Origin: Phoenix dactylifera
Taxonomy: Eukaryota; Streptophyta; Magnoliopsida; Arecales; Arecaceae
Reading direction: 5' to 3'
Length of the DNA: 64,000 nucleotides
Assembly: GCF_009389715.1 (NCBI RefSeq)
Contig: NC_052397.1
Span: forward strand, 16,750,129-16,814,128
In this document: positions 16,234 through 64,000 of the stretch, in pieces
Position numbering within the stretch: position 1 is the stretch's first letter
Layout of the letters: each line of letters starts with the position of its first letter
Translations under genes and position numbers: made by a program
Notes under the pieces: generated by a model
The model's database searches: none
The model's input: the letters and a program-made list of their open reading frames with translations, nothing else
What the model was told of the DNA's origin: nothing

Positions 16234-17560
16234 TAGCTTACATTATGGTCTTCTAACAAAATTACTCTTGATAATATTTGCTATAACACAACTGCGTCTG
16301 CTCCTAGAGTTTGCAGCTGAGCAGCAAATCCTCTTGTCTTCTAAGCAAGAGGTTGGGTTCAAAGCTGAGTCTCGATTGCATCTTTCGCACAAAAGAAGTA
16401 TTCATCTTACTTCGCACGAATCTATCATTGGATTGCCCAATGCACAGATCTCAAAGTACTCCAAGCTCTATTATTTATCTGTATGTATAGATCTCAAAGT
16501 AACTAATGGATAATTCAAAGGCCCGTGAAAGATACAACTCTAATCCTTCGAGGCTTTAAGTATTAGGCTTGGCCTGTTTTGGACTGCAGTACCTATAGAG
16601 TGAGTAAGAGCAGGCTCCTATGTGCTTGATCTCAAGATTGTTTACGAATTTCTTAACCACATTGGACTATTAGTTGACTTGAGGTCAAGAGACTGCCAAT
16701 CAAAATGTCGGTTAACAACCAGCCAAATCCTCTTCACAAGAGACTGCCATTGTGGTCTTGAATAGAGTTATTCTTCACAATATTTTCTATAACGCAATTA
16801 CGCCTCTACTCCTTGAGTTTGTAGCTAAGCAGCAAATCTTCTTGTCTTCTTGGTGAGAGGTTGGATTAAAATCTGGGTTACGATTGTATCTTTCGCACGA
16901 AAAGAGTATTCATCTTCCTTCACGCGAATCCATCAATGGATCAACCAATGAACAGATCTCAAAACATTCTGAACTCTGTTATTTATTCACCTACATAGAT
17001 CTCAATGCAACCAGTGGGTAATTCAAAGGACCTGTGAAAGATACAACTCTAATCCTTCAAGGCTTCAAGTAGTAAGCTTGGTGATCTGTTCTGTACTCTG
17101 GTACCTATGGAGTAGGTAAGAGCAGGCGGTGGGGTGGGTTGGATCCCCTTTATTTTATTTTTTTTTTGAAAAAATAATCGCATGTGGTACCTATCAGCTC
17201 TTATATATGTGCTTGATCTCAAGACTGTTTGTTAGAAAGTTTTCCCATCCACATTGGACTACTAGTTGACATCATGAGGTCAAGAAACTGTCAACCAAAG
17301 AGTCTAAAAACAACCAGTCAAATCCTCTTCACAAGTGACTGCCATTATGGTTTTTTAACAGAACCATTCTTCACAATATTTTATATTACACAATTGCATC
17401 TACTCCTCGAGTTTGTAGCTAAATCCTCATCTTCTAGGTGAGAGGTTGCGTTCAAAGCTGGCCCGCTATTGTATTTTTGCAGGAAAGAAGTATTCATCTA
17501 CCTTTGGACGAATTCACTGTTGGATCATCCAATACACAAATCTCAAAAAATAATTATTTA
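16234..17560 (+). repeat. Tandem array of ~0.55-kb non-coding units downstream of HIPP copy 2
   Basis: Blocks such as CTTCACAAGAGACTGCCATT, TTTGTAGCTAAGCAGCAAAT, GAGAGGTTGG, AGTATTCATCTTCCTTC and TTAGTTGACTTGAGGTCA recur three times, starting near 16235, 16740 and 17330. The same unit follows the other HIPP copies. It shows no coding frame. The sequence at 16845-16849 (TCTTC) is the intact form of the site where the copia element inserted in the inverted copy. Confidence 0.8.
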
Positions 17561-18164
17561 AAAAAATAAAAGTGATTAAAAAAATTTAAAGAATTATTAA
17601 TTAAGATCCTATTTAAAGAAATAAAAATGATTAAAAAATATTTTTGATATGCATAGTATCGTGTCAGCTAATATCTTGGATTTTATTGATTTATCTTGAT
17701 TGAGAAAATAGGCCAGGACTTTTGCATATATTATATCCAAAGTCACCCTACAAATCGAGATCTCGACTAAGATGAAAATCCTGGTCCTATTTGATATTGA
17801 TGCAGGGGGATCATCAAATTCTATGTAGATCATTTTGGCCATTATAGGTAGGATTGGATATGGTCTAGGAGCAAGATTCACAACATTGAGAAGTCAAATC
17901 ACGTGCTAAACTTCCTAAAGCTACAATGTGGTCGTACGATGCCAGATTAAGATTATTTTTTTCAAAAATCAGATAACTTTTCAAACTTTATAACACGGCG
18001 CCACCCCTTTAATAAATTAGGATATTTAAGATGTTTTATTGTTAACAGGTTACCGGTAAGCTACCAAGTTACCAACCTCCTTTTTTTTTTTTTTGAAAAA
18101 TAGAACATTCTATTATTTTGGCTCTACTTCACTGACCCATCGCGATGGTGGATGCAGGCCACTG
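17561..18164. other. AT-rich continuation of the HIPP downstream flank
   Basis: No gene seen. About 17600-18010 matches 6290-6770 behind HIPP copy 1, so the duplicated unit extends to here. A short T-run near 18080 precedes unrelated sequence. Confidence 0.55.
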
Positions 18165-18769
18165 CTAGGGCTGGAAGTGGGCCGGGCCAGCTCTTATCCG
18201 AACCCGACCCGAATTTTTTTTGGGCTTTGGGTCAAGATCGGGCCTAGGTATTTTTAGATAATCTTGGCCCGAGTTTAGCCCAATCCCAGGCCTGAACCCA
18301 ATTGTTCCAGCCCGAATTATCCATTTGGGCCAAAAATAGGTCCAACCAAAATTTGATTGAAATTTAATAGTTCATAATATTACTTTATAAAAAAATGAGT
18401 TGATTAAAAAGTAGGCATTCTCTTATAATACAAGTAAATGATACATAAGACATTATTCTCATTTAAATTCATTTTGATTTGTCCTTTACTTTCTCATTAT
18501 TTTCTTTAAATAACAACATACAAAAATAAATTGATTCGGACCTAAATTTGGACTTTGTTTCGAGCCTTGTTTGGGCTCGGGCTCGGGCCTGGCCTAACTC
18601 CGGGCCCGAGTTAGGCCAGTGACATACCCAAGCCCGGTCTGAAAAATAAATGGGTTCTATATTTTAGCCCAAACCCAGTTTGACTCTTTCAAGCCTAAAC
18701 TGAAGCCCTGTCCAAAATCGGCCTGACCCAATGTGCTTAAGCTAGGTCCGAGCCCATTTCTAGCCCTAG
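18165..18769. mobile_element. Probable hAT-type non-autonomous element
   Basis: The ends CTAGGGCTGGAAGTGGGCC and, reverse-complemented, CTAGGGCTAGAAATGGGCT form imperfect terminal inverted repeats of about 25 bp. The interior is dominated by GGGCTCGGGCCTGGCC-like motifs seen in many plant hAT MITEs. I could not find a matching 8-bp target duplication, so the class is a judgement from the ends. Confidence 0.55.
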
Positions 18770-19590
18770 TTGTTGCCTACGCTTTCGGGATTAGGGATGA
18801 GGTAGCAGTAAAAGGAATAAAATGCCTTTTGGAGTACCGTAGTAAAGCCCTATAACTATATAGGAGTTACCTGTGATATAAGTGGTCTGCTGTCATATTA
18901 ATGTCTTACACTAGACTACATGCTTGCTTAACTTGCTTGTGTTTGGTGTTTACTTGACTCGATGAGTTCTTTTGATCAAAGTTTTTTAGGTTAGATCTAA
19001 TGAAATTCCCATTTTGTTGCAATAAATTGTGTCCATTCCATGTAGACTAGGTTATAATAATGCAACCTCGGTTATAATGGCCAGAAATAGGCTGTATGTT
19101 TCTTCGATACATGCTAGGTTACGCTTGCTTTGAATGGGATTAATAGAGATGGAACTAGTTTAGTGCATAGAATTTCGAAGTCCAAAAATGTGGTCCAAAA
19201 TTTTTGACAACAGCAATCTGTCTACCACCACCAAACAGACCAACTAAGGGTTCTAAGCTTTGTAAGCATCATAGACCATTGATGCACGAGCTAGAAGCCT
19301 TAGATAGTATTTGGTGACCCAAATAGGATCACCAACGTGATCTTAGATCACTAGTGATTCTTATCTTAGAATAATCTGATCTCAAATAATTTAAGATACT
19401 ATGTTCAGTATATTATGCTCGAGTAATTAAAGATTTTCAGGTATCCACAAGCAACCTATTTGGTATTCAATGGAAATCCAAGATTACTGATTATATATTA
19501 CTAAAACTATCCTTGATATACCCCATAAAATATATTTATTAATCATATAAATATATTATAATACAATATTAATATATTTATTAATATATT
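18770..19590. other. Gene-free stretch
   Basis: No gene seen. About 18910-19000 resembles the two flanks of the putative solo LTR at 35065-37319 (around 35020-35064 and 37325-37375). It therefore gives an uninterrupted version of that insertion site. Confidence 0.4.
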
Positions 19591-20573
19591 TGTTGTGGTT
19601 CAAGTTTGGCCCGAGGGCGACCACGTCGAAGGAGTCGGAGGAGCTGCCAGTCGAGACGGAGAAAGGACGCCACCTCCCGCGCGCCGGCGTACTTGCATAA
19701 GCCTCACCGATGTTCTCGGTGAGGGACCTCCGATGCTTAAGTTAGCGTGGAGTTTATGTTGGCCAAAAAGTCCTTTAGGCGTTACCTGATTGGGCTATTT
19801 ATAGTCCTCACGGAGGTGCCCAGGTGGCGGAGATATGGCTCGTCCTCATCATGGAAAGAGATGGCGCTGGTCAGGTGACGCGCGGCCACGGTTTGCTTGA
19901 GGCACACAGTTTGAACTGTCTCTGCCCACGGTATGGCTCTGGCACGTGCCGCAGGGTATGGAACTTGTCAGCAGGCATGGCTGGGGCAGCAAGGCGTAGT
20001 CCTTTGTTTGCGTGTCTTGGCGTGGCCATCAAACGAAGCATGGTGCGGTGAGGTTGTCGCAGGGCATGGCCGCGGCGCGTACTGGGTGAGATTAGCTCGG
20101 CCTTTAGTAGGGACCGAGATCGGCCTTGCCCGCTTGGTAGGGTGCTGAGGTCGTGCCGACACGGGGGGCCACGACAAATATTCGGTGAGGTCGGCTCAGT
20201 AGGCGTTGAGGTCGGGCCGATTTGGGAGCCACAATGTTTGATGAGGTCAGCTTGGCGGGTCCTGAGATCGGCCTAGCCTCCTTGACTTTAAGATCTACTC
20301 AGCAGGGCGCCCCGAGCTCGAGCCGGGGCGCGTCGTCGAATAGGCCGCCCCGAACTTAGCCGAGGCAGGTCGTCATTGTAGACTCCAAAGGAGGTTGATG
20401 TAGGTCGTAGCAGCGGAGAGATCTGGCCAAGGTCGGCTTGACCTTCGGCGATGTCCAAGATCGAACTGCTCTTAGCAGAACCGAGGTCCCGCCTGGTCGG
20501 TGTCGAGGTCTACTTGGCTAGAGTGGGGTGGTCCCATGTTATGAGCAGGACGATTCATTTTACCCCCCATCAA
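19591..20573 (-). repeat. Solo LTR in the left arm
   Basis: On the minus strand it begins TGATGGGGGG and ends ACCACAACA (983 bp). Perfect 5-bp duplications ATATT flank it (19586-19590 and 20574-20578). A minus-strand TATAAATA in GGACTATAAATAGCCC (about 19793-19808) fits an LTR promoter. No internal domain is present, so recombination between two LTRs removed it. The same insertion with the same target site recurs inverted at 41652-42535. Confidence 0.85.
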
Positions 20574-21065
20574 TATTAATTATTAATATAGTCCACAAAA
20601 ATATATTTATTAGTCCTATAAATTATTAATCCTATAAATATATATTAACTATTATTATAAAATTAATATCTTTATTTATACTTATAATATATTTTTAGTA
20701 CTAATATTTATTTTGATGAGAAAAATAAGGTAAATAGAAGTAATATATTAAATAATTTCATTATATAAATATAAAATACAATAATATATTTCTACTATAA
20801 TTTAAAATTATCATTCAATATTAATTTGACAATAATATGATTAATAATATATTATAATATGATATATATCATAAATAAATATATATAATATAAATATAAT
20901 ATGATTATATATATAATATTAATATAATATATTAATGGTGTATTGATATACTAATTTGTTTTGCTAGATTGAGAGATATTTTGTCCGTAAATTTTAGCCC
21001 ATGATCATTTTCTTGAGGCGATCATGCATTTCCAACCTTAAGGACGAGTATCCTATTGCTAGGTT
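20574..21065. repeat. AT-rich repeat, copy a
   Basis: Very AT-rich DNA to about 20960, then TTTGTCCGTAAATTTTAGCC and GGACGAGTATCCTATTGCTA. It is repeated directly at 23690-24180 and inverted in the right arm. No gene seen. Confidence 0.8.
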
Positions 21066-22041
21066 TAAAGCCGGTCCGAGCGTTAGGCGACCGAGGCGGT
21101 CGTCTAAGGCCTCGGGCCAATGGAAGGCCTCCAGGAGGCATGACCAATAGGAAGCAAAGGCTCCATATAAAAATGGGAACAGGAGCTGGCTACGAGTTTT
21201 CCCCCTTGATGGAAGGGAGGTGGAGAGTTTCCTGGCCTGCAGAGGGGCAATTTGGGAAGTTGGGGACAGTAGTTTTATTTTGGGTGGAGAGGGAGGGAGA
21301 GAGAGAGAGAGAGGAGGGATTTGGTTGGCTTGAAAAACGCCTGAAGCCACTCTTATCTTTCATCCCTTCTCTTTTTTGGTTTTGGTCTTGGTTTTCCTTC
21401 CCTCACATTACTCCCAATCCAGCTGGGCCATCAGGAAGAAAGATAGGGGGATTGGAGATGGACTTTTGGGAGGGTGGAGATTCTTTTAATTTTCTCCTCT
21501 CGGTTTCTTCTCCCCTCTTGGTTGGTAGAGAGAGAGAGGAGGGAGGTTGGAGATTGAATGGCTGCTGTGCTGTGATGTTGCAGTTGCTGCTTGGGTACTC
21601 GCTTGAAGGGGAGATGGTGGGATGGGACTTTATTAATTAGATGAAGTGAATTTCCCATAATGCCCCTACTTTCTCTCATAGAGAGGACCCTTTTTGGACA
21701 AATTCTTTCTTTTAACCATGAAATGCCATAGGATAACCTTTTCCTAGTCTACTCTTAACATGGTAAACAGTACTGCCAAGCATTATCTCAGGTATTTAAT
21801 CAGTTTTATAGGTCTTTCTTTAGCGTAATTACAATTCCGTTTCTTTATTTAAAAATTATATTAAACTGAAGAGGCTTCTTGTCTAGATTCATGTATCTTT
21901 GTTGGAATAGTGTACTTGATAGCTACCTATTTTCATATTATTTTTTTAAGTTACATATTAAAAAATTTTATTATTAAAAAAAAAGAAGCCTCATTTATTG
22001 GATCCGCCTTAGGCCTCCAAATGTGTTGAGCCGGCCCTGCC
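21066..22041. mobile_element. hAT-type non-autonomous element in the left arm
   Basis: The left end AAAGCCGGTCCGAGCGTTAGGC and the right end, reverse-complemented CAGGGCCGGCTCAACAC then GGAGGCCTAAGGC, are typical hAT terminal repeats. The copy at 24170 runs through GCTAGGTTGTGTGG without the element and shows a related uninterrupted sequence. Open frames inside are low-complexity and not convincing. Confidence 0.65.
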
Positions 22042-22557
22042 CACCCACCCCCACCGCCCCAACCCCCACTATAAACTCGCTTGAAGGGGAGATGGTGGGA
22101 TGGGACTTTTATTAATTAGATGGAGTGAATTTTCCATAATGCCCCTACTTTCTCTTATAGACAGGTTCCTTTCTGGACAAATTCTTTTCTTTGCCTTGGT
22201 CATGAAGTGCCATGGGATAACCTTCCCTATTCTACTCTTGCTTGACATAGTAAACAGTATTGCCAAGCATTATCCCAGTTATTTAATCAGTTTCATGGCC
22301 CTTCTTTTAGAGCAATTATATTTCTGTGCCTCCATTCAAAAATTATATTAAACTGAAGAGGCTTCTTGTCTAGATTCATGTATCTTTGTTGGAATAGTGT
22401 ACTTGATAGCTACCTATTTTCATATTATTTTTTTTAAATTACATATTAAAAATTTTTATTATTAAAAAAAAGAGGCCTCATTCATTGGATCCGCCTTAGA
22501 CCTCCAAATGTATTGAGCCGCCCCTGCCCACCCACCCCCCACCACCCCACCGCCCCA
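21597..22557. repeat. Tandem duplication of the hAT right half (offset 478 bp)
   Basis: 21597-22040 is repeated at 22075-22518 (CTCGCTTGAAGGGGAGATGG to GCCCTGCCC). The 34 bp in between are C-rich and end in TATAA, like the HIPP copy 3 promoter just downstream. The duplication therefore copied a piece of that promoter too. Confidence 0.8.
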
Positions 22558-22559
22558 CC

Positions 22560-23296
22560 CCCCGCTATAAAAAAGACTGCCCCCGCCCTGCCCTCCCTGC
22601 AAACCACACTCGAAACCATACATTCAGAATTAAGATATGGCTTCAATCTAGCAATGGCGGAAAAGGTTGCGAATTCTCCTATTTGTTGTGTCTTATCTAT
22701 GTAATTTTCAAAGGCTTATGATGATTTTCACTCATTTCACTTATAGAAGTCACAATATCATGATCTCTTCCTTAAAACTTATAGTTATATGTTTATGATA
22801 GTACGAAGCTTTAGTATTCCCTTTTATATTTTTTTATCATAATAAAACTTGGAAGCAGGTCGTTTTCATCACTCTTAAATCTTTTGTTTCGTTCTTATTT
22901 AGATCAATCTGACCATGTTTAACTTTGATATACATTATTTATCCTTTCTGTATTAGCTTTAGCTCACAATTATTGTTAAATTATTTCTAACTATGCCAGT
23001 GAAAGCAAGTTTCAAGTTTTCCAAATTTTTTTCTCACTCGCTCTCTCCTTCTTTCTTTAATATATAGCAGGCTAATGCGTCAACTCTAGAAAAGCAGATA
23101 AATGCATTTTTGCTGCCTTCTTTTTTTCCCTTCCTTCCTTTTTCTTTCTTATTATTTTAATACTCATATTAAGACAATGGTATCATCATTTGTAATGCAC
23201 ATTTATTTTCGGATATTCCCTAGCTGAGGTCCTTCATATTATTTTCACATTCACTAAACAAATCATATCACAGATCTCCAAGTTAGCCATAAAATT
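22560..23296 (+). pseudogene. HIPP copy 3: 5' half only, broken in exon 2
   Basis: The TATA box (22566-22574), leader, start codon and exon 1 (22654-22665, MAEK) and intron 1 are well preserved. The exon 2 acceptor (CACAG) is at 23269-23273. Exon 2 then reads only seven codons (ISKLAIK, 23274-23294) before unrelated sequence takes over. The CxxC loop, the rest of the HMA domain, the tail and the CaaX box are gone. A hAT element lies directly upstream of the promoter. An inverted duplicate with the same break lies at 39150-39935. Confidence 0.85.
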
Positions 23297-23681
23297 TGTT
23301 GGAGGCAACGAAAGCAAAGTGGGATGAAAAAGACTAGAAGAATGGATTTGCTTCAGAATGTTTTCTTTTCATTCAAAATGGGGGCTGATTACAATAATTC
23401 AGATACATCAGAGCTACTGCATTTTTAAAGTTCTGTATCTTTTTTTCAGAATGTTTTCTTTTCATTCAAAATGGGGGCTGATTACAATAATTCAGATACA
23501 TCAAAGCTACTACATTTTTAAAGTTCTGTATCTTTTTTTTTAACATTTTTTTTGAGCCTACAATGAACGACATATTTCTAGTAGATAACTCTAGAACATC
23601 ATTTAAGCTGATTCAACAAGTTCTAAAGTCTAGGGAATATAAAGAGTCATTCAACATTCAGTCAAAAATATCTTCTGCACA
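23297..23681. repeat. LTR-like insertion in HIPP copy 3, with a 93-bp tandem duplication
   Basis: The segment begins TGTTGGAGGC and ends TCTGCACA, which would suit a small solo LTR. No target duplication was found. Inside, 23354-23446 is repeated at 23447-23539 (period 93 bp, about 98% identical by eye). The inverted arm carries the same insertion and duplication. Confidence 0.5.
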
Positions 23682-23689
23682 ATCTAGAA

Positions 23690-24180
23690 AATTAATATAT
23701 TAATCCTATAAATATATTTATTAGTCCTATAAATTATTAATCCTATAAATATATATTAACTATTATTATAAAATTAATATCTTTATTTATACTTACAATA
23801 TATTTTTTAGTACTAATATTTATTTTGATAAGAAAAATAAGGTAAATAGAAGTAATATATTAAATAATTTCATTATATAAATATAAAATACAATAATATA
23901 TTTCTACTATAATTTAAAATTATCATTCAATAATAATTTGACAATAATATGATTAATAATATATTATAATATGATATATATCATAAATACAATATATATA
24001 ATATAAATATAATCTGATTATATATATATAATATTAATATAATATATTAATGGTGTATTGATATACTAATTTGTTTTGCTAGATTGAAAGATATTTTGTC
24101 CTCAAATTTTAGCCCATCATCATTTTCTTGAGGCGATCATGCATTTTCAACCTTAAGGACGAGTATCCTATCGCTAGGTT
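23690..24180. repeat. AT-rich repeat, copy b
   Basis: Direct repeat of 20580-21066, ending in the same GAGTATCCTAT-GCTAGG block. Its part up to about 24030 also has an inverted match starting at 38412. Confidence 0.8.
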
Positions 24181-24870
24181 GTGTGGTGATTTGAAGAGTA
24201 TGTGTGCTTTGGAATCACTACCATATAGGATCATCATAGTACAAGATGATCTCATCATCTCCACCAATATCACCTTCAGTCTCGCGATGATCATCCCTTC
24301 TTAAAATTTTATGAAACCATTTCCAAAAGATATAGAGATCACTACTAGCTAGCATATAAAGTATTAACCGACACCCCAGGTCAGCCTGTCGGATCTATCT
24401 TCTATTGACTTGACTCGCGTTGACGCCACCAACCTCATATTAGTACAAAAGCTGCCTCGAAGTAGATCAGGCCCCACAGATAAAACAAAGGCAGTGCTAC
24501 CATTGGCTTTGTTTGCCAAGCTTTTAAACTTTAATACAAACTTTATCTTTATCGTTTTAGATATGACGAGGCTGATCGTAAAGAGGCCTTTGCATCATAT
24601 CCCTCAAAGTGGAAGGCAGCGGGAGATGCATCAATGGTGGTTCTTATGATTTCCCAGCATGACGATGGTAATTTAGCACTTTAAGATTCATAAAGGGAGT
24701 GGTCCTCCCCATGAGTAATCACATCTTAAATTTCGTAGTTTAATACTTTGAATGCAACGGCTATCGAATTTTTTCTCTTGATAACAACTAGGAAAAGTTA
24801 TTTTGGTGGATATGATGGTCGTTAAAATATTTTAAAAAAAAGGCTCCCACCCACCCCCAACCGCCCCACC
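24181..24870. other. Upstream region of HIPP copy 4
   Basis: No gene seen. 24335-24830 matches 28200-28760 upstream of HIPP copy 5 (ACTACTAGCTAGCATATAAAGT, CAAAAGC-GCCTCGAAGTAG, GGTGGATATGATGGTCGTTAA). The duplicated unit of copies 4 and 5 therefore begins near 24335. Confidence 0.6.
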
Positions 24871-24876
24871 CCCAGC

Positions 24877-24885
24877 TATAAAAAA
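24877..24885 (+). promoter_or_regulatory. TATA box of HIPP copy 4
   Basis: TATAAAAAA lies 88 bp upstream of the start codon, after a C-rich tract shared with copies 3 and 5. Confidence 0.7.
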
Positions 24886-24964
24886 GACTGCCCCCGCCCT
24901 GCCCTCCCCGCAAACCACACTCGAAACCAAACATTCAGAATTAAGATCTGGCTTCAATCTAGCA

Positions 24965-26334
24965 ATGGCGGAAAAGGTTGCAAATTCTTCTCTTTGTTGT
25001 GTCTTATCTATGTAATTTTCAAAGGCTTATGATGATTTTAACTCATTTCACTTATAGAACACACAATATCATGATCTTTTCCCTAAACCTTACAGTTATA
25101 TGTTTATGATAGTACGAAGCTTTAGTATTCCCTTTTATATTTTTTTATCATAATAAAACTTGGAAGCAGGTCGTTTCATCACTCTTGAATCTTTTGTTCC
25201 GTTCTTATTTGGATCAATCTGACCATATTTAACTTTGATATACATTATTTATCCTTTCTCTATTGGCTTTAGATCACAATTATTGTTAAATTATTTCTAA
25301 CTATGCCAGGGAAAGCAAGTTTCAAGTTTTCCATTTTTCTTTCTCACTCGCTCTCTCCTTATTTCTTTAACAGCAGGCTAAATGCGTCGGCTCTAGGAAA
25401 GCAGATAAATGCATTTTTGCTGCTTTTTTTTTTCCTTCCTTCCTTTTTCTTTCTTATTATTTTAATACTCATATTAAAACAATGGTATCATCATTTGTAA
25501 TGCACATTTATTTTCGCATATTCCCTAGCTGAGGTCCTTCATATTATTTTCACATTCGCTAAACAAATCGTATCACAGGTCTCCAAGTTAGCCATAAAAG
25601 TTGACCTAGGCTGCCGTTGTTGCTACAAAAAGATTCAAAAGATTCTATGCAAGATCCAAGGTACGTAATTAAACCTCCCCACACTTCACTGCCTCCATTC
25701 TAGTCCAATATTTCAGCTACTAATGATTGTACGTACCAATCATCCAATTTCCCCCCATGATCTCCATCACAAAGAACGAGAGAACATAAAAACCATCTCC
25801 TATGACGAGAAGAACAATACTGTCACAATCTCCGGCCCATTCGATCCCGAGAAGCTCTCCAAGAAGCTCCGCTGCAAGGCCTGCAAGGTGATCATAGACA
25901 TAGTAATTGTAGTGGAGAAACCGCCGCCGCCACCCCCACCAGAAACTAAGAAGATAGAACTTACCAACGAGCTGCACAACGACATTCAGATCATATTATA
26001 CGACCTTCACAAGGATCCCAAATGCACGGTGACTAAGAAGGTGATCAAGGAACCTACTCCCGAGAAGAAAAAGGATGCTAAGGATAAAAAAACTGCCGAA
26101 ATAGAAACTAAAAACGAGGTGACCAACGACATTGAGATCATAGTACGGGAGCATCCAAAATGCCTGGATCCCTGCATGGAGCTGCCAAAAAAGGTACCGT
26201 GTCAACCACCAATTTGTCAGGTTTGTTGCTGGATGCCCTGCTCTTGTCCACCAATGCCCTATGGTGGAACCTCTCATGGAGGATACCGGTTGATTTGCGA
26301 GGAGGATTCATCAACCTCCTGTACCATCATGTGA
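24965..26334 (+). CDS. HIPP copy 4: heavy-metal-associated isoprenylated protein (PI21-like), 217 aa
   Basis: Exons are 24965-24976, 25579-25660 and 25775-26334. Introns are GT-AG (602 and 114 bp) in the same phases as copy 2. The HMA domain (residues about 5-75) carries CRCC (C16-C19) in VDLGCRCCYKKIQ, then TISYDEKNNTVTISGPFD and KLRCKACKVI. A PPPPPPP stretch follows. Next come two related modules, each with an N-x-x-x-N-D-I core and a PKC: ELTNELHNDIQIILYD with HKDPKC, and EVTNDIEIIV with EHPKC. They are separated by a Lys/Glu-rich linker. The long Cys/Pro repeat of copy 2 is reduced to CQPPICQVCC. The end is CTIM, a predicted farnesylation box. Metal binding and membrane targeting follow from the family; a disease or stress role is inference. 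The ATG at 25723 is intronic in this model. Confidence 0.85.
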
Positions 26335-26421
26335 TCATGTGTATCCGTGTTTTTCCTTTGCCAAAAAATAACAACAGAGATAAGGGTGAAGGATGTTAGA
26401 TTCATGCGAGAATAATGTGAA

Positions 26422-26427
26422 AATAAA
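26422..26427 (+). terminator. Poly(A) signal of HIPP copy 4
   Basis: AATAAA about 90 bp after the stop codon, conserved with the paralogues. Confidence 0.6.
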
Positions 26428-26529
26428 ATGTTATTTTGGTGTGTTTTTTGTTTTGAATATTGTGTGAAAGGATTTTATGCCTGAATAATATGAAGTTCTT
26501 TTTCCTTGGTGTTTTTCTCCAAAACTAAA

Positions 26530-27230: not shown

Positions 27231-27440
27231 AACAGTCAGATATAAGAGCACTAAGAAGAAGAAGGGAAGAAGATTCAACTATCATCTTTTACTTTTTTTT
27301 TTTTTCTTATTTGTTTTTTCATTTATTGATGACAGGCTCTGCTCTTAAGTGTACTGAGCAAGCAGGCCGGCAAATATCAAACCCTATGCTGCAACTTTTC
27401 TCCATTCTACCTCGGGAGTAGTGACAAATAGCATTTCCAA

Positions 27441-27722: not shown

Positions 27723-27728
27723 GATCTG

Positions 27729-27914: not shown

Positions 27915-27929
27915 GTATGTTTTATTTAT

Positions 27930-53508: not shown

Positions 53509-54722
53509 CGACCAACGAGCGGAATTTCCTGAGGCCTAACCCTCGGATGCCTGGCCTAGCGCCGGAAGAATTTCCTGAGGCCTAACCCTCGGATGCCCGG
53601 CCTAGCGCCGGAAGAATTTCCTGAGGCCTAACCCTCGGATGCCCGGCCTAGCGCCGGAAGAATTTTCTGAGGCCTAACCCTCGGATGCCCGGCCTAGCGC
53701 CGGAAGAATTTCCTGAGGCCTAACCCTCGGATGCCTGGCCTTGCGCCGGAAGAATTTCCTGAGGCCTAACCCTCGGATGCCTGGCCTAGCGCCGGAAGAA
53801 TTTCCTGAGGCCTAACCCTCGGATGCCCGGCCTAGCGCCGGAAGAATTTTCTGAGGCCTAACCCTCGGATGCCTGGCCTAGCGCCGGAAGAATTTCCTGA
53901 GGCCTAACCCTCGGATGCCTGGCCTAGCGCCGGAAGAATTTTCTGAGGCCTAACCCTCGGATGCCCGGCCTAGCGCCGGAAGAATTTCCTGAGGCCTAAC
54001 CCTCGGATGCCCGGCCTAGCGCCGGAAGAATTTCCTGAGGCCTAACCCTCGGATGCCCGGCCTAGCGCCGGAAGAATTTCCTGAGGCCTAACCCTCGGAT
54101 GCCTGGCCTAGCGCCGGAAGAATTTTCTGAGGCCTAACCCTCGGATGCCTGGCCTAGCGCCGGAAGAATTTCCTGAGGCCTAACCCTCGGATGCCCGGCC
54201 TAGCGCCGGAAGAATTTTCTGAGGCCTAACCCTCGGATGCCTGGCCTAGCGCCGGAAGAATTTCCTGAGGCCTAACCCTCGGATGCCTGGCCTAGCGCCG
54301 GAAGAATTTTCTGAGGCCTAACCCTCGGATGCCCGGCCTAGCGCCGGAAGAATTTCCTGAGGCCTAACCCTCGGATGCCCGGCCTAGCGCCGGAAGAATT
54401 TCCTGAGGCCTAACCCTCGGATGCCCGGCCTAGCGCCGGAAGAATTTCCTGAGGCCTAACCCTCGGATGCCCGGCCTAGCGCCGGAAGAATTTTCTGAGG
54501 CCTAACCCTCGGATGCCTGGCCTAGCGCCGGAAGAATTTCCTGAGGCCTAATCCTCGGATGCCTGGCCTAGCGCCGGATGAATTTCCTGAGGCCTAACCC
54601 TCGGATGCCTGGCCTAGCGCCGGAAGAATTTCTTGAGGCCTAGCCCTCGGATGCCTGGCCTAGCGCCGGAAGAATTTCCTGAGGCCTAACCCTCGGATGC
54701 CTGGCCTAGCGCCGGAAGAACT
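53509..54722 (+). repeat. 46-bp tandem array inside the gypsy element, about 26 units
   Basis: Unit GAATTTCCTGAGGCCTAACC then CTCGGATGC-CGGCCTAGCG then CCGGAA, 46 bp. It begins inside the last 121-bp unit and continues without a gap. Units differ mainly at TTTCC/TTTTC and GCCC/GCCT. Confidence 0.97.
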
Positions 54723-55343
54723 TCAAGAGTCAGGAGTCGGCGAGGCGCTACCAGGAGTTAAAAAGAGGAAGGACGAAAGTGAAATGAGGAAACACTTTGT
54801 TTGCATTAACTTTCGTTGCATCAGGGCCGAGACCCATACAACATGGCAAAACGCCAACATACAAAGAAAAGAACAAAGAAAAGTACAGAGAGTCAGCTTA
54901 GAGGAACCCCTGGGTCTGGAACGGCGAGCACGTCCGCGAAGGAAAGGGAGAACGGCTCCGAGAGAGTCAAAGGAGGAGCGAACGAACAGTCCGACGGCAA
55001 CGGCAGCAGCACAAGGGAGAAACTCGAGGATGCCTGTGAAAAGAAAGGCGGACGGGGGAGGGCCCCCGGTTAAATAGGCGGAAAGGCGGGTGACGCCTCG
55101 GTGACGCCAGAGGACGCCTGGCTGCCGAAGGATCGTTCGCGCCCCAAAGGCGAATCGACGCCATTAAGGAAGGATGTCCGCCGAAATCCGCAGACCGCCA
55201 GATCAGCGACAACCGCCATACGCCATAAAGAAGGTGGGGAGCTCGGAGCGCGCGCACCTTTCCGAGGGATGGCGGCAATCTCGAAGCGTCACTCCCTTCA
55301 CCCGTTCCCCTCCTGGTTCCAGGCTCGGAAGTGGGGGGGCTAC
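54723..55343 (+). other. Gypsy 3' internal region and polypurine tract
   Basis: No recognised protein. The last bases, GTGGGGGGGCTAC (55331-55343), are the likely polypurine tract in front of the 3' LTR. Confidence 0.6.
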
Positions 55344-56141
55344 TGTTACGGGGGAACTTAGCCACCATGCCCCACGTGACCGGCACGCGCGCCCAGGAAG
55401 ACTACGGCTGCCCCTTGATCCAGCAATCCGACCTCGGGTCGGATATCTTCGGCTCCGCAGCCCGACCCCGAGTCGGCTGCCCCTTGGTCCAGCAATCCGA
55501 CCTCGGGTCGGATATCTTCGGCTCCGCAGCCCGACCCCGAGTCGGCTGCCCCTTGATCCAGCAATCCGACCTCGGGTCGGATATCTTCGGCTCCGCAGCC
55601 CGACCCCAAGTCGGCTGCCCCTTGATCCAGCAATCCGACCTCAAGTCGGCAATCTCTTGACAACAACAGACTGTTCCCCTGAGGCACGCCGCGGCCCCCT
55701 GCTCCACTACTCCCTGCAACGGCCGTATCCGGCGCTGCCCCACGATCCCCTGTAACAGCCGTACAAAGCGGAGCTCCACTACGCCCTGCCATGGCCGTAC
55801 CCAGCGCTGCCCCACGACGCCCTGTAACGACCATGTCAATGGCAACCCCATCGGGCCACACGATGACCAATCCCCAGAAAAACCCCCCAGCCTGATATAT
55901 ATGCGGCTGGGGGGGAAGGGGAGGGTAAGCAAGATTTTCCAGAGTATTATCTTACCTGCTACCTCTTCTTCTCCTTCGATCTCCCCTAACTTGATCGTCG
56001 GAGGGCCCCCACCACCCCGGTGGTGGTGCGAGGCTTGCTTGCAGGTTTCCCGGCGGAAGGTGGAGCGCAACCGAAGTAATTCCAAGGGAACCCCGTTCAC
56101 ACCGCTGTGCCAATCGTTCTCGGTTTGGACCCCCAGCAACA
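55344..56141 (+). repeat. 3' LTR of the gypsy element
   Basis: 798 bp, TGTTACGGGG to CCCAGCAACA, with three full 69-bp units plus a partial one (55407-55660). Followed by the TAAAC target duplication. Confidence 0.95.
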
Positions 56142-56860
56142 TAAACCAAGCTCAACACCTCAGAGAAAAAGAATTTTAAACAGAAATACAGAGGAGGAGC
56201 ATTCCAAAAGAAGGAAAAAGGCAACTATCAAGGAGGAGCAAACCAACAACAATCAGATGGTTTCAATCCTCGATGCCGAGTTTGCAAGAAGAACAACCAT
56301 GACTCAAAAGATTATCGATATAGATGCAATAAGTACTGCAAGATCCCCAACCATTCACAAAGGGACTGTTGGTACCGAAAGAAGAATGGAAATGAAGAAG
56401 CCAACTTCACTAAAAATGAAGCAGAAACTCAACAACTCTTCTCTTGCATGAATGTTCAAGAAGATTCTCAAAATGTATGGTATTTGGATAGTGGGTGTAG
56501 CAACCACATGACGGGGAACCAAAAGATCTTCATCCAACTTGACAAAAATTATTCTTCCAAGTTATGCTCGGAGACGGCAAACTCCAAACTATTGAAGGCA
56601 AAGGATCTATTGAAGTTCTCACCAAAGGAGGTAACAAAAGGCTTATTAATGATGTTCTTTATGTGCCAAATTTATCTCATGACCTCCTAAGCATTGGGCA
56701 ACTTACTCAAAAAGGATATGCTATCAACTTCAATAACAATAGCTGCAAAATTTTTGATAAAAAGAATAACTATCTAGTTGCTACTGTTCCTATAAGCACA
56801 AACAATGTTTTTCCTCTAACTATGTTATGACAAGATGTCGTATTCAAAAGTGAAACTATC
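56142..56860 (+). pseudogene. Copia gag zinc knuckle and protease
   Basis: Continues the copia frame after the gypsy insertion. A Cys/His cluster (CRVCKKNNHDSKDYRY, about 56265) is the degenerate zinc knuckle. The protease site VWYLDSGCSNHMTG lies at about 56475-56515. The protease C-terminal part (LYVPNLSHDLLSIGQLTQKG) is at 56564-56830 in a shifted frame. Confidence 0.88.
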
Positions 56861-58070
56861 AATATGTCAACTTTATGGCATCTTCGATATGGACATTTGA
56901 ATATGAAGGGGTTGCATCTACTCAAGCAAAAAAATATGGTGATTGGTCTCCCTTCCATCGAAGGAAGAAGTCAAGTATGTGAAGGCTGCATATATGGAAA
57001 AATGCATAAGTTACCATTTCCAAAGTCTTCATGGAAAACCAAAGCACCTCTTGAACTTGTTCATGCTGATATATGTGGACCCACAGTAACTCCATCACAC
57101 AACAACCGAAGGTACTTCATTCTGTTTGTTGATGATTATACTAGAATGATGTGGGTTTACTTCTTGCATGCCAAGTCTGAAGCCTTCTCTATGTTTCTAC
57201 AATTCAAAGCACTAGTTGAGAAACAAAGTAGATTCCAAATCAAGACTCTTCGAACTAATCGAGGAGGAGTGTTTATCTACAAACCATTTATGGAGTACTG
57301 CAAACATAATGGTATCCAAAGACAACTCACAGTTCGTATGAGTCCTCAACAAAATGGAGTTGCTGAAAGAAGGAATCGCACCATTGTTGAAATGGCCTGA
57401 AGCATGTTGAAAGGAAAAGGCTTACCAAATAATTTTTGGGCTGAAGTTGTGCATACTGCTATTTACATTCTTAATATATCTCCTACAAAAACAGTGTTTA
57501 ACAAAACTCCATTTGAAGCATGGCACAAAAGAAAACCAACAGTACATCATCTTAAAGTATTTGGTTGTATTACCTATTCTCACATTCCATCACGATACCG
57601 GGAGAAATTTGATGAAAAAGGAGAAAAACTAATATTTATTGGTTACAGTGATGAATCCAAAGGTTACAGATTGTTCAATCCAAAAACCAAGAAGCTTGTC
57701 GTCTCAAGAGATGTAATTTTTGATGAAGCATCTAACTGGAATTGGACACAGAACTCATCTCAAATGCCAAACTCATATGAATTCATGGAGCCACAAGCTA
57801 AACAAGAAGAGCACCAACAAACTCCTTCTACACCAACATCAATTTCTTCACCAATACAAATTTCACCATCTATTTCACAAACTTCTTCTTCTTCATCAAG
57901 TTCAATCCATTCTCCCTCTTTTTTAGAAACCATGGATACAGATTCTTTACCAAAGAAAGTTCGATCTATGCAAGATATTTATAACACTTCTCACTTTGCT
58001 TTCTTTGGTTATGAACCTCAGAATTTTGAGAAAGCTGTTGTAAAGGAAGAACGGAAAAAGGCAAAAGGCA
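56861..58070 (+). pseudogene. Copia integrase
   Basis: The HHCC finger (LWHLRYGHLNMKGL, CEGCIYGKMHKLPF) is followed by the catalytic core (HADICGP, FVDDYTRMMWVYFL, MSPQQNGVAERRNRTI). A TGA stop at 57398-57400 replaces an Arg codon, and the integrase C-terminus continues to about 58070 (WAEVVHTAIYILN, KLIFIGYSDESKGYRLFNP). In the core the usual DNGGE reads NRGG, so a catalytic Asp is lost. Confidence 0.9.
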
Positions 58071-59108
58071 ATGGATGATGAGATTGCAACACTTCAAAGG
58101 AATAAAACTTGGGAGCTCGTCAACCTGCCAAAAGGGAAAGACGTGATCGGGCTAAAATGGATTTACAAAATCAAGTATAAAGAATATGGATCTATTCAAA
58201 AGCATAAAGCTCAACTTGTCGCCAAGGGATACTCACAGCAGCCTAGCATCGATTTTACCAAAACATTTGCACCAATTGCAAGAATGGAGACAATCTATAT
58301 TGTTCTTGCTCTTGCTGCACAACTTGAGCTTCAAGTCCTCCAACTTGACGTCAAATCTGCTTTTCTCAATGGCTAACTGAAGGAGGAGGTATACGTCAAA
58401 CAACCTTAAGGCTATGAAGTGGCAAGTATGGAACACAAAGTCTATAAACTTCATAAAGCTCTATATGGCTTGAAGCAAGCTCCACGAGCTTGGAACAGAA
58501 GGATTGATAAATACTTTTGTTCAAATGGATTCCAAAGAAGCCCAAGTGAACCATCTCTTTATGTAAAGAGATTTGATGCTACTAACTTTCTTGTTGCATG
58601 TATCTATGTTGATGAACTTATCTACATGGGTGCTAACATACAAGTTGTAGAAGAATTCAAGCAAAGCATGATGAAGGAATTCGAGATGACAGATCTCGGA
58701 TTAATGAAGTATTTTCTTGGAATCCAAGTAAAGCAAGCCAAAGGAGAAATTTTTATCTCACAAGAGAAATACATTAAAGATATGTTACAGAAATTTCAAA
58801 TGGACAAGAGCAAACCAGTTTCAACTCCAATGGCATTGAATGAAAAGTTAAAACAAGATGATGATGCTGAAAAAGCTGATGCACAGCTCTATAGAAGTTT
58901 AGTTGGTTCATTAATATATCTAGCCAACACACGGCCTGACATTATTTATGCTGTGAATGTTGTTTCAAGATTTATGCAAGAACCAAGCAAACTACATTAT
59001 GCTGCTGCAAAACGCATTCTGAGATATCTTCAAGGAAGTCAAAGGCAAAGCATAAAATATGTTAAAGAAGAAAATAACAATCTTGTTGGTTATTTCGATA
59101 GTGACTAG
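58071..59108 (+). pseudogene. Copia reverse transcriptase with altered active site
   Basis: RT motifs are WELVNLPKGKDVIGLKWIYK, LDVKSAFLNG, LHKALYGLKQAPRAW and LGIQVKQ. Stops lie at 58374-58376 and about 58408. The active-site box, normally YVDD, reads YVDE (58605-58616). The second catalytic Asp is therefore Glu, which should abolish or severely reduce activity. A TAG stop at 59106-59108 lies at the RNase H boundary. Confidence 0.92.
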
Positions 59109-59390
59109 GCTGGTTCAATTGATGATAGAAAAAGCACGTTTGGCTATATTTTTTGTCTTGGTTCAAAGATGATTTCATGGAGTTCAAAGAAACAAAAATC
59201 AATTGCTTTATCTTCAGCAGAAGCAGAGTACATCGCAGCTACAGATGCTGCATGTGAAGCGGTTTGGTTAGGAAAAGTTCTCTTGGACCTACAACAAACT
59301 CAAGTTCAACCAACTATCATTTATTGTGACAACATGTCAGCAATTGCTTTGTTTAAAAATCCAGTCTTCCATGCAAGGTCCAAGCATATT
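59109..59390 (+). pseudogene. Copia RNase H, 5' part
   Basis: RNase H motifs SSKKQKSIALSSAEAEYIA and YCDNMSAIAL are present. The domain is cut after ARSKHI by the composite insertion at 59391 and resumes at 63130. Confidence 0.92.
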
Positions 59391-59527
59391 TGTAACAACC
59401 CAGGACCTCACCCAAAATGGCTAGCCGGAAGTTATTGTTTGGATTCCTTGATCCTGTATAAGTACCCAAGATCTACCCAGCGAATAACCGATGTGGGACT
59501 AAACACATGCCCGCATGGGTCCTCGCA
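59391..59527 (-). repeat. TRIM-like LTR, inverted, left end of the composite
   Basis: Minus strand TGCGAGGACCC to GGGTTGTTACA, 137 bp, matching 62691-62827 and 62993-63129. Followed on the minus-strand 5' side by a leader of about 165 bp (59528-59693) shared with the right-hand units. Confidence 0.9.
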
Positions 59528-59678
59528 TACTTTTCCTGTTCAAGCCCTGACGTCCTCGTCAGGCTAAGGGTTCAAATCCATTCAAATCTAATCACAAACA
59601 CCACGAACGGTCCGTGGTCAACCCCAATGGATCCGTACTGCAGTGTTCCCTAGTCCACATAAGTTATGGGCCAGGTCC

Positions 59679-59690
59679 GCTCTGATACCA
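59679..59690 (-). other. Primer binding site next to the chromovirus LTR
   Basis: Minus strand TGGTATCAGAGC, three bases after the LTR end GCGTGACA. This is the initiator methionine tRNA type. Confidence 0.8.
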
Positions 59691-59693
59691 CTC

Positions 59694-61985
59694 TGTCACG
59701 CCCCGAACCCATCACCCGGGTCCGGTACGTGACCGGCCGCATGAGCCCTAGAGCAGTGCCCTAAAGATCATGCAAGGCCTAAGATAAACAAATAATTTCA
59801 ATAATTTCATAAATGCCAAAATTAATGATTAATGAAATTAAATCAAATCCAACCAAAATGTGCGGAATTATTACATAATTTTCCAATGTCCATAAACAAA
59901 AGATAAATTAACTTCTATCTATCTAGCAGTCAGACTCCATGTTGATCTCATTTCTCGTCCCACCCAATGGACTCTACAAATCCAGTGCCTCTGAAAAAGA
60001 AAGTAAGAGTAATATGAGCTTTTCCAGCCCTTAAAAATCCCAACAGCCACACACAAAATATTAATAAAATAAATCAAGCATCAAATAAATGCTATTTCAT
60101 CATTCAAAAAGCTCAACAAACAACAAATATATATAACTATTTCATATACATAAATCCTTTTTCACATTATGTGATCCATTCACATATTACTCTGATTCCC
60201 AAGTTTCAAAATTTTTCACTTCTGGCATTGGACTAACCAAGTTCATGTCCCAGTCCAAGACTGCACAAATCCCACGCATAAGCTCGTGGCAGCTATCCCA
60301 CACGTAAGCCCGTGGAGGCTATCCTACGCATAAGATCGTAGAGGCTATCCCACGCATAAGCCCGTGGAGGCTATCCTACGCATAAGCTCGTAGAGGCTAT
60401 CCCATGACAAGGTTAGTCCAACCCATTTTACATGTCTAGTTTTACATGTTTAATCAAATTCCAATCACATCACATATTTTCATAATTTCTCAAAAATATG
60501 TTAATTCTTCCCAATTTAATTATTTCAATATTTTCATAGCAATCAAAATGCACATCTCATATGTATCATACAAGCTCATAAAACAAATAGCAACATACTG
60601 ATAAAATATATCCAACGATAAATCCAATATATGTATAAATAAAAGTGCTCAGATGTAGGGATTCTTACAGAGATTGTAGACTGACTCAAACACGGGTCCG
60701 AATCACAACCTACGCGCTGGGGTGCTAAGTCCCCTGATCAAAATCTCCTGGCACCGCCGGCTCTTCCTCTACAACATCAATTATAAATCACAACTAAATT
60801 ATTTAATATTTAAATATTCTAAACCATAATTCATATCTACTATGGGGTCCATCATCAGGTCCCCAAACATCTCAATCCCTCCAAATCTAGGGCAGTCGGG
60901 GTGGCCCGACTTCCACCCTTGTACCACCGGCCTGTGTCGTCGCCAGTCGGGGCCGCTGCCATGCCGGCGACGATGGCCGGTCTCGATGAAAAGACCAAAA
61001 GAAAGGAAAAAATCCTTCATGGTTGGGAGTACATCTCCCTCCTACTATTTACTTGGGTCCAAGGGTAATAGCCATGGTAGCTGTGCCCTCTCCTTCCCCA
61101 ACCCGACAACACCACTGGCCGAACCATCATCGGCCGTCTTTGCTGCAGTCGCCGGCGATGGTGGCTGGCCAAAGAAAGAGAGGAGAGAAGATCCCTCTTC
61201 TTCTCCTTCCCTTAGAACCGAAAGGGTCCTCCCCCTTTTCCTGCATTATTGACAGAAGGCAAGCATCCTCACAGCCACCGTGATGGTGGCTCGGCTCCCC
61301 CCCACCCGACAGCAGCCATGGTGGCCCACGACCGCCGCCGCCATCGCCGCTGGTGGCCATCCGACGAGGGGAAGAGGAGGAGAGGATGGGATCCCGAGGA
61401 AGAGGACCTCGAATCCACCCTCCCTCATCACATACACAGCCTAGTAAATCCTCTCCGACCTTCATACGAACCCGACCAGCCCCACCGCCATGCATCTCGG
61501 CCATCCCGGCGGCCGGCGGCCGGCGGCGGCCAAAAATTGGAAAGAAGAGGCCGAAACAGGGGTACCCTGTTTCGGGCCCTTCTCCGACGATTCACCGGCC
61601 AACTCTTCACCCATACCACCCAAAATTCAGGAAATAAAACACAAAGGAAGGATTACCTCGGTCCGGCGGGGGGTTCCAGCGATCCTTCCAGCGAGAAATC
61701 GGAGGAGGAACCGTGAGCAACTCCCCTCGGATCCACGCTTCTTCACCCGTCGGAATCTTCGGCGAAGGGAAGTGGTCTTCCTCCGCGGCCAGTTCCATTG
61801 TGAATCTCGACGCTTGTCTCCTCTCCGGCATCAACCCCTCCGGCGACCTCCTCTCCAACGCCGCCGCCCTCACCCCTCAACAGCCCCCTCTTCCACGATC
61901 GTGCCTAGGGCACGATCGTAAAAGAGGAGACGGGCCCGGTCTTTTCGGGCCGGCCCGTTTCCCTTTTTTTGGGGGGGGGTTCACA
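59694..61985 (-). repeat. Chromovirus (Tekay-like) LTR
   Basis: Minus strand from TGTGAACCCCCC (61985), preceded by a purine tract (AGGAGGGGAGAA), to GGGGCGTGACA (59694), 2292 bp. A chromodomain-bearing pol end lies upstream and a primer site downstream, so this is LTR sequence in a pol-LTR-leader junction. Open frames around 60800-61900 are GC-rich and without known domains; I treat them as LTR sequence. It contains five 26-bp units (60274-60402). Confidence 0.75.
60274..60402. repeat. 26-bp tandem repeat in the chromovirus LTR
   Basis: Five units of ACGCATAAG-CCGTGGAGGCTATCC, alternating GTGGAGG and GTAGAGG forms. Confidence 0.9.
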
Positions 61986-62020
61986 TTCTCCCCTCCTAAA
62001 AAAAAATTCGTCCGCTAAAT

Positions 62021-62403
62021 TTACGTACCTGTAATACCAAAGAGTTGAGGATGTTTGGCTTTTATTTCTTCCTCGAGCTCCCAAGTGGCCTCTCTTTTTG
62101 AGTGATTGCTCCATTGCACCTTTACATAAGGAATGGTCCGTCGTCGCAACACTAGATCCTTTCTATTCACAATCCGTACCGGGTACTCTTCATAAGTTAG
62201 GTCCTCATGCAGACTTATAGGCTCAAAATTTACCATATGGTTCGGGTCCGGAATATGTTTTCTCAGCATTGAAACATGGAATACATTATGTACACCTGAT
62301 AAGCTGGTGGTAGAGCCAAGCGATATGCTACTTCTCCAACTCTGTCCAAGATCTCGAATGGACCAACATACCTAGTGCTCAATTTGCCACGAACCCCGAA
62401 CCT
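62021..62403 (-). pseudogene. Chromovirus integrase C-terminus with chromodomain
   Basis: Minus strand: RFGVRGKLSTRYVGPFEILD, VGEVAYRLALPP, then after a 1-nt shift near 62305 VHNVFHVSMLRKHIPDP. The chromodomain-like end follows: RKDLVLRRRTIPYVKVQW, EATWELEEEIKAKHPQLF. This is the diagnostic C-terminus of plant chromoviruses. The rest of pol is absent; the sequence meets a TRIM-like LTR at about 62413. Confidence 0.88.
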
Positions 62404-62412
62404 CATCACACC

Positions 62413-62525
62413 TTTAGTCCCACATCGGTTATTCGCTGGGTAGATCTTGGTTATTTATACTGGATCAAGGAACCCAAATAGTAACTTCTGGCTAGCCATT
62501 TTGGGTGAGGTCCTGGGTTGTTATA
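62413..62525 (+). repeat. TRIM-like LTR, 5'-truncated
   Basis: Lacks the first ~24 bp (begins TTTAGTCCCACATCGG), ends TTGTTATA, and is followed by TGATATCAGAGC, a mutated primer site. Confidence 0.85.
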
Positions 62526-62690
62526 AATGATATCAGAGCGGACCTGGCCCATAACTTATGTGGACTAGGGAACACTGCAGTACGGATCCATTGGGGTTGA
62601 CCACGGACCGTTCGTGGTGTTTGTGATTAGATTTGAATGGATTTGAACCCTTAGCCTGACGAGGACGTCAGGGCTTGAACAGGGGGAGTA

Positions 62691-62827
62691 TGTGAGGACC
62701 CGTGCGGGCATATGTTTAGTCCCACATCGGTTATTCGCTGGGTAGATCTTTGGTACTTATAAAGGATCAAGGAATCCAAACAATAACTTCCGGCTAGCCA
62801 TTTTGGGTGAGGTCCTGGGTTGTTACA
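62691..62827 (+). repeat. TRIM-like LTR, middle copy
   Basis: TGTGAGGACCCGTGCGGG to GGGTTGTTACA, 137 bp, preceded by a purine tract (AGGGGGAGTA). The primer site TGGTATCAGAGC follows at 62830-62841. Confidence 0.92.
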
Positions 62828-62992
62828 AATGGTATCAGAGCAGACCCGGCCCATAATCTATGTGGACTAGGGGACACTGCAGCACGGATCCATTGGGGCT
62901 AACCATGAGCCGATCATGGTGTTTGTGATTAGATTTGAATGGATTTGAACCCTTAGCCTGACGAGGATGTCAGGGCTTGAACGGGGGGAGTA

Positions 62993-63129
62993 TGTGAGGA
63001 CCCGTGCGGGCGTGTGTTTAGTCCCACATCGGTTATTCGCTGGGTAGATCTTGGGTATTTATACAGGATCAAGGAACCCAAATAGTAACTTCCGGCTAGC
63101 CATTTTGGGTGAGGTCCTGGGTTGTTACA
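62993..63129 (+). repeat. TRIM-like LTR, right end of the composite
   Basis: 137 bp, preceded by ACGGGGGGAGTA. Together with 62691-62827 it encloses a 165-bp internal region, so one complete TRIM unit is 439 bp. Confidence 0.92.
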
Positions 63130-63293
63130 ATATTGAACTTCGACATCATTTCATTCGGAATTTGGTAAACAAAGAAGAAATCATTTTGAAGTATGTTGGC
63201 ACAAATGAGCAAGTTGCAGATTTTCTTACCAAAGCTGTCACCATAGAAAAATTCAGAAAGGTTAAGAATCAATTGCAAATTAAGGAGTATTAG
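63130..63293 (+). pseudogene. Copia RNase H, 3' end
   Basis: Resumes the copia frame after the composite: IELRHHFIRNLVNKEEIILK and ADFLTKAVTIEKF, the standard end of copia pol. It stops inside the start of the 3' LTR. Confidence 0.92.
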
Positions 63294-63597
63294 GAAGTAA
63301 TTTGCAATTAATGCACATGACTCTTCGGTGTTGATACAACTCTGTCATTCCAAAGAGTCAACTTAGTAATCCAAAGAGTTATTTTGTAATCCAAAATGTC
63401 ACTTTGGAAATCTCAGAAGTACTTGTATTTCAAAGAGTCATTTTAGTATTCCAAGGGCATTAAATGTTACTTAAAGTGTCATTCTATATAAGAATGGCTT
63501 TAGCAAGATTGTAAGATGCAGAAAAAAACTATGAATGAAAAATATCTCTTGCTTCAATCATGATCCTATCCCATCAACTTTACATCTTGTTCCAACA
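63288..63597 (+). repeat. 3' LTR of the copia element
   Basis: 310 bp, TATTAGGAAG to GTTCCAACA, after a short purine tract (AAGGAG). The GAAGA duplication follows. Confidence 0.95.
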
Positions 63598-64000
63598 GAA
63601 GATAAGAAGATTTGCTGCTTAGCTACAAACTCAAGGAGTAGAGGCGTAATTGCGTTATAGAAAATATTGTGAAGAATAACTCTATTCAAGACCACAATGG
63701 CAGTCTCTTGTGAAGAGGATTTGACTGGTTGTTAACCGACATTTTGATTGGCAGTCTCTTGACCTCAAGTTAACTAATAGTCCAATGTGGTTAAGAAATT
63801 CGTAAACAATCTTGAGATCAAGCACATAGGAGCCTGCTCTTACTCTATAGGTACTGCAGTCCAAAACAGGCCAAGCCTAATACTTAAAGCTTCGAAGGAT
63901 TAGAGTTGTATCTTTCACGGGCCTTTGAATTATCCATTAGTTACTTTGAGATCTATACATACAGATAAATAATAGAGCTTGGAGTACTTTGAGATCTGTG
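63598..64000 (-). repeat. Right arm of the large inverted duplication (part 2)
   Basis: Mirror of 16440-16849 to the last base of the window (CACAGATCTCAAAGTACTCC on the minus strand at the edge). The duplication therefore continues beyond the window. Confidence 0.92.

Follow-up and report, generated by a model that had tools for sequence, protein, structure and literature searches.

The date palm (Phoenix dactylifera) carries a cluster of Pi21-like HIPP genes on contig NC_052397.1, which we have analysed in a window of 64,000 nucleotides (positions 16,750,129 to 16,814,128 of the forward strand; coordinates below count from the first base of this window). Proteins of this kind are defined by an HMA domain and a C-terminal CaaX box. 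The locus is a direct array of five HIPP units, A to E, on the + strand, and part of this array has undergone an inverted segmental duplication, such that a left (native) arm is now accompanied by a right arm in the opposite orientation (Table 1).

The HIPP array

The spliced proteins of units B and D are letter-identical to annotated date palm Pi21-like proteins, both named 'protein PYRICULARIA ORYZAE RESISTANCE 21-like', and on this ground the window belongs to date palm or to something that these genes do not tell apart from it. The C-terminal ends of B and D read CTIM, against CTIL in unit E. A Pfam search of D returned an HMA match (E 1.1e-4, 22.9 bits) that lies below the cut-off of 24.8, and the last-exon frames of B and E, searched alone, gave no family match. 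Unit C is broken, and a counterpart (C2) lies in the right arm. Unit A (4405-6750) is without the HMA-coding middle and has stops in its last-exon frame, as befits an older broken unit. What distinguishes this locus from the palm Pi21-like/HIPP genes with which we compared it (P0001-P0004 and P0007 of Phoenix, P0005 of Elaeis) is the addition of an inverted, gene-depleted copy. No paper in the library searched combined 'Phoenix dactylifera' and 'Pyricularia oryzae resistance 21', and across the literature searches no title or abstract start among the matches listed named this locus.

Two inverted arms of common descent

Self-comparison of the window yields the following inverted matches: 16443-16850 with 64000-63597, 16845-17881 with 43594-42536, 19693-21715 with 42533-40506, and 22099-24031 with 40328-38413. 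The arms are 96.3% identical over 5,418 aligned bases, with 201 differences (148 transitions and 53 transversions) and a Kimura two-parameter divergence of 0.038 +/- 0.003; the count is of non-overlapping bases, including a 51-bp patch at the inner end and excluding gaps and stretches found in one arm only. These matches bear out the inverted arms proposed in the initial annotation, which had placed the left arm at 16440-24030 and its inverted copy at 38412-43594 plus 63598-64000.

The two arms are collinear in opposite orientation, with a gene fragment, tandem repeats, a hAT-like block and flanking sequence in one order, so that homology extends beyond dispersed repeats. Both contain a HIPP copy whose exon 2 is interrupted at one and the same codon, and both have two tandem duplications, one of 93 bp and one of about 487 bp, the latter incomplete on the right. 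The hAT-like block is likewise present in each, as is a solo long terminal repeat (LTR). The block we take to be hAT from a reading of its ends against hAT terminal repeats. The solo LTR had been described as sharing one ATATT target site; in the left arm it is indeed bounded by ATATT at either end. The right arm keeps the 3' part from 19693 on with its 3' ATATT, but the 5' end is deleted there, and the comparison covers the 3' side only. The shared insertions and the HIPP copy with the common break show common descent, as the initial annotation had held, and descent by inverted duplication is supported.

Inverted repeats are a usual place for misassembly, and a false join or a folded read might be suspected. 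The duplication of one sequence in this manner would not be expected, however, to yield arms that differ by 3.7%, private deletions, and a retrotransposon insertion in one arm only, flanked by a target-site duplication (TSD). An assembly error is therefore unlikely, to the point that we give it hardly any weight.

How long are the arms? On the right, the arm runs into the edge of the window, where base 64000 aligns to 16443, and the outer limit of the left arm may lie further left; within the left arm the duplicated interval covers 16.2 kb or more. The arm length of about 7.6 kb proposed earlier holds only as a floor set by the end of the window. The inverted copy may include gene B. A search for such a copy among known proteins gave six matches, none near B except B itself, in a set whose clustering at 90% could hide one.

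The inner boundary of the duplication

The initial annotation had ended the arms at 24030 and 38412, leaving a 14-kb spacer that enclosed two intact HIPP genes. A short relic at the inner end of the right arm leads us to a different geometry. When the region around the junction (38100-38420) was searched for exact matches of at least 15 bp, a single one was found, a 41-bp inverted match of 38362-38402 with 32623-32663. Gapless extension of this match to the arm end gives 48 identities in 51 positions, and BLAST aligns 38362-38415 with the inverse of 32610-32663 (50/54 identical). The relic abuts the end of the right arm without a gap, inverted and collinear, so that the right arm reads from 16443 to 24031 and then directly from 32613 to 32663. 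Its alignment score of 87 compares with at most 39 in 200 shuffles, and a score of 88 with at most 52 among 105 spacer tiles, both strands being searched. Over its 54 bases the relic has a divergence K of 0.078 +/- 0.040, which agrees within error with the 0.038 of the arms. Beyond 32663/38361 no inverted homology was found (score 10, a value reached by 298 of 300 shuffles, versus 296 for a control within the arms).

Considering that the relic matches at the arm end and that no inverted homology continues past 32663/38361, we place the inner arm boundary at 32663/38362, with the right arm lacking sequence that the left arm contains, and give this reading a probability of roughly 0.8. The spacer then shrinks to 5.7 kb, and genes D and E, rather than being enclosed between the arms, lie inside the left one.

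The shorter arms and 14-kb spacer would hold if the 54-bp match at 32.6 kb were an unrelated repeat. The patch is indeed short, and the stretch at 32.6-33.5 kb, rich in A and T, might represent a small transposon. It is difficult, however, to reconcile an unrelated repeat with a patch that abuts the arm end in inverted and collinear fashion and outscores every spacer tile, and neither side of its 41-bp core has an exact match of at least 15 bp at a third place in the window. No clear terminal inverted repeats surround 32.6-33.5 kb either: the best 25 of 218 candidate pairs are AT-rich and none sits at both ends, and the end-to-end alignment of this stretch is weak. We have accordingly rejected the small transposon with the 54-bp match as a remnant of its repeat, and consider the 14-kb geometry improbable.

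Three pieces of the spacer (35033-35065, the match of which was read by eye, 37321-37379 and 37721-37827) have matches in direct orientation to a stretch at 18.9-19.0 kb and to the regions upstream of genes D and E. Perhaps these are parts of an old further unit of the array, split by an insertion of about 2.3 kb.

Sequence missing from the right arm

With the boundary at 32663/38362, a left-arm stretch of 8.6 kb that holds D and E has no counterpart on the right. A second left-arm stretch, of 1.8 kb, is missing there as well. The polarity of the larger difference can be read from an AT-rich repeat (repeat X), which on the left reaches 24180, matching the ends of the other copies (21065, and 41156 on the right), and on the right is cut at the equivalent of 24031. 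Since the repeat is whole on the left and cut on the right, the 8.6 kb is missing from the right arm rather than gained by the left. Its arrival as a later insertion in the left arm was considered and rejected, since such an insertion would also need to have completed repeat X by supplying the tail that is absent on the right.

The absence from the right arm of the equivalent of 17880-19690, noted in the initial annotation, is confirmed with the limits 17882-19692. Homology with the distant copy A (5604-6750) continues to 18012, across the left edge of this gap, and on this sequence comparison the difference is a loss from the right arm, at least at its left edge. An insertion into the left arm is rejected at that edge by the same homology; the remainder of the stretch is without an outgroup. 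Neither deletion join has clear microhomology (none at all at 24031/32613), which together with the two extra T at the 1.8-kb join fits end joining.

Was the 8.6 kb copied and then lost, or was it never copied? The same structure and boundary would result if replication had switched template twice at formation, in a manner resembling fork stalling and template switching (FoSTeS) or microhomology-mediated break-induced replication (MMBIR), taking about 50 bp at 32.6 kb and then moving to 24.0 kb; D and E would in that case never have been present in the right arm. Both pieces are collinear in the same inverted orientation, and the product would be identical to that of duplication and deletion. 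Skipping needs a second switch at formation, however, and the 24031/32613 join offers no microhomology; moreover, the 1.8-kb loss from the right arm requires end joining in any case. The existence of this other deletion favours later loss, and we find it somewhat more likely that the 8.6 kb was copied and lost afterwards; skipping, weighed within the structure bounded by 32663/38362, is the less likely alternative.

Table 1. Features of the Pi21-like HIPP locus and its inverted duplication (window coordinates)
Feature	Position	Strand	Remarks
Left (native) arm	16443..32663	+	Inverted matches to 63597-64000, 42536-43594, 40506-42533, 38413-40328 and 38362-38415
Right arm, inner part	38362..43594	-	43590-43594 doubles as one copy of the copia TSD
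Right arm, outer part	63598..64000	-	Ends at window edge; 64000 aligns to 16443
Spacer between arms	32664..38361		5,698 bp; without inverted homology past the junction
Inner-end relic, 54 bp	38362..38415	-	Matches 32610-32663; the 3 final bases can be aligned with the 24031 side too
Left-arm stretch without right counterpart	24032..32612	+	8,581 bp; holds HIPP D and E
Left-arm stretch missing on right	17882..19692	+	1.8 kb; 2 extra T at right join
Repeat X, first copy	20599..21065	+	Right counterpart 41156-41625
Repeat X, second copy, whole	23710..24180	+	AT-rich; right counterpart 38413-38734 is cut
HIPP B, intact	13988..15821	+	3 exons; spliced protein letter-identical to P0004 (Phoenix dactylifera)
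HIPP C, broken (left arm)	22563..23298	+	Truncated in exon 2
HIPP D, intact	24965..26334	+	3 exons; spliced protein letter-identical to P0001 (Phoenix dactylifera)
HIPP E	28891..30284	+	Open across the same 3 exons as B and D; 220 amino acids
HIPP C2, broken (right arm)	39146..39877	-	Same truncation as C
Solo LTR	19591..20572	+	ATATT on both sides in left arm
Copia element	43595..63597	+	TSD GAAGA (43590-43594, 63598-63602); two further insertions inside
Gypsy element, nested in copia gag region	44614..56141	+	TSD TAAAC; LTR K 0.008

Retrotransposon insertions and the age of the arms

The 20-kb retrotransposon nest that had been described in the right arm is real, and its outermost member is a copia element with an LTR pair (309 and 310 bp), gag, integrase and reverse transcriptase domains, and the TSD GAAGA; the left arm is the empty site of this element. 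The motif TGGTATCAGAGC that follows the 5' LTR is typical of copia. The gag region of this copia element is interrupted by a gypsy element, and its RNase H region (RNase H being read by eye) by a third insertion with ATATT on either side. This third insertion (59391-63129) is an odd element, with ends TGTAACAACC...GGTTGTTACA and a repeat of about 303 bp, of which one end has a single copy and the opposite end about 2.4 inverted copies. The nested gypsy element contains tandem arrays at 52058-54724, with a 121-bp unit repeated 12.4 times and a 46-bp unit repeated 26.2 times. Its DNA is 72% similar to that of a gypsy reverse-transcriptase frame (35-1093) at the left edge of the window. The window also holds a direct repeat (9515-10614), the copies of which, 9515-10024 and 10112-10614, are 84% alike.

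A rate of 7e-9 per site per year has been applied to palm LTRs, and is related in the available part of that source to an Adh rate of 2.61e-9 (PMC7822834). At the former rate the arm divergence of 0.038 corresponds to about 2.7 million years (My), and at the Adh rate to about 7.3 My; with non-CpG sites alone the two values fall to 2.2 and about 5.9 My. The duplication is thus probably about 2-3 My old at the palm LTR rate. The LTRs of the copia element differ at 12 of 309 positions (K 0.040 +/- 0.012), which is not above the arm divergence beyond error, and the element may therefore have landed soon after the duplication. The LTRs of the gypsy element differ at 6 of 798 positions, and this element is younger than the copia element.

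Mechanism of the duplication

In the likeliest history, a single inverted segmental duplication took place in the tandem Pi21-like HIPP array of date palm: the sequence from 32663 back to 16443 or beyond was copied, and the copy was joined in reverse at 38361, with the 5.7-kb spacer left between. The likeliest route, of which we are less sure than of the structure, would be replicative copying by fold-back or break-induced replication, with a broken or stalled end turning back on itself and using the same chromosome as its template. The right copy would then have lost the 1.8-kb and 8.6-kb stretches (the latter the D/E counterpart) by end joining, and would have received the copia element and, inside it, the gypsy element.

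Human non-recurrent inverted duplications with a disomic spacer, which arise by fold-back, offer a parallel, in that a spacer, mostly of a few kb, separates the inverted and native copies in the cases covered by the available part of the report (PMC3907307). Those human duplications adjoin terminal deletions, translocations or rings, and their junctions mostly show microhomology or repeats (PMC3907307, same part), whereas the date palm event lies inside a tandem gene array, is 3.7% diverged and lacks microhomology.

Several observations weigh against this reconstruction, or against parts of it. The inner junction at 32663/38361 has 0 bp of inverted microhomology (CTAAATATAGGTT/GCAA versus /CCCC, the stroke marking the junction), which tells against the fold-back route; of 21 human junctions sequenced, 13 had 2-8 bp of microhomology, 3 lay in homologous repeats and 5 carried insertions, as given in the same part of that report (PMC3907307). 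Lacking inverted microhomology or repeats at its junction, the date palm duplication is not classed here as a proven fold-back product. Nor does spacer length alone favour 5.7 over 14 kb, since sequenced human spacers, so far as that part goes, reach 70 kb (PMC3907307). Further copies of the 54-bp piece were searched for within this window only, and the outer breakpoint of the duplication lies beyond 64000, outside the window. Arm divergence is uneven, with non-CpG differences at 25 of 1393 sites in the outer blocks versus 129 of 3714 in the inner blocks (p 0.0013), and one age for both sets of blocks is a poor fit; conversion, constraint or local rate may account for the smaller divergence further out. 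Finally, C and C2 group together against D and E (5 sites versus 2 and 1). They differ at 31 of 730 sites, but C and D differ at 38 of 726, a distance that hardly exceeds that between C and C2, and the grouping rests on few sites. The grouping alone is weak, and the shared exon 2 truncation is the stronger evidence for the kinship of C and C2.

Two other routes to the same arms deserve consideration. If a tandem duplication had first arisen in direct orientation and one of its copies had then been inverted, the end product would be similar, and the locus is itself a direct tandem array; this sequence of events requires one additional step, however, and we regard it as rather unlikely. Alternatively, transposons may have driven the rearrangement, by alternative transposition of hAT-type ends or by transposon capture. 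A hAT-like block is indeed present in the arms, and, according to the accessible portion of one report, Ac sister-chromatid transposition is said to yield flanking inverted duplications and deletions (PMC3744419). The likeness to the Ac rearrangements covered there is that local duplications, some inverted, arise in plant chromosomes with hAT elements (PMC3744419, same portion); the difference is that no transposon end is recognised at the date palm inner junction. Considering that the junction at 32663/38362 is away from the hAT-like block and has no recognisable terminal repeats, we give transposon-driven rearrangement only slight weight, and prefer copying by a folded-back or otherwise replicating end.

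Implications for the Pi21-like cluster

Do the arms still recombine? If so, the 5.7-kb spacer would flip or be converted among date palms, and so would the D-E stretch through exchange between arm blocks, a suggestion that we consider unlikely. Were it true, recombination between the arms would give orientation or copy-number variants of the Pi21-like gene cluster, and such exchange would have left its mark in the outer arm blocks as their smaller divergence.

The event is a real but ordinary inverted segmental duplication, of a kind known in genome evolution. Its analysis illustrates that a relic of only 54 bp can reveal an original duplication longer than a dot plot suggests, and it corrects the layout of a crop tree's Pi21-like HIPP cluster: the intact genes D and E lie inside one arm and have no inverted counterparts.

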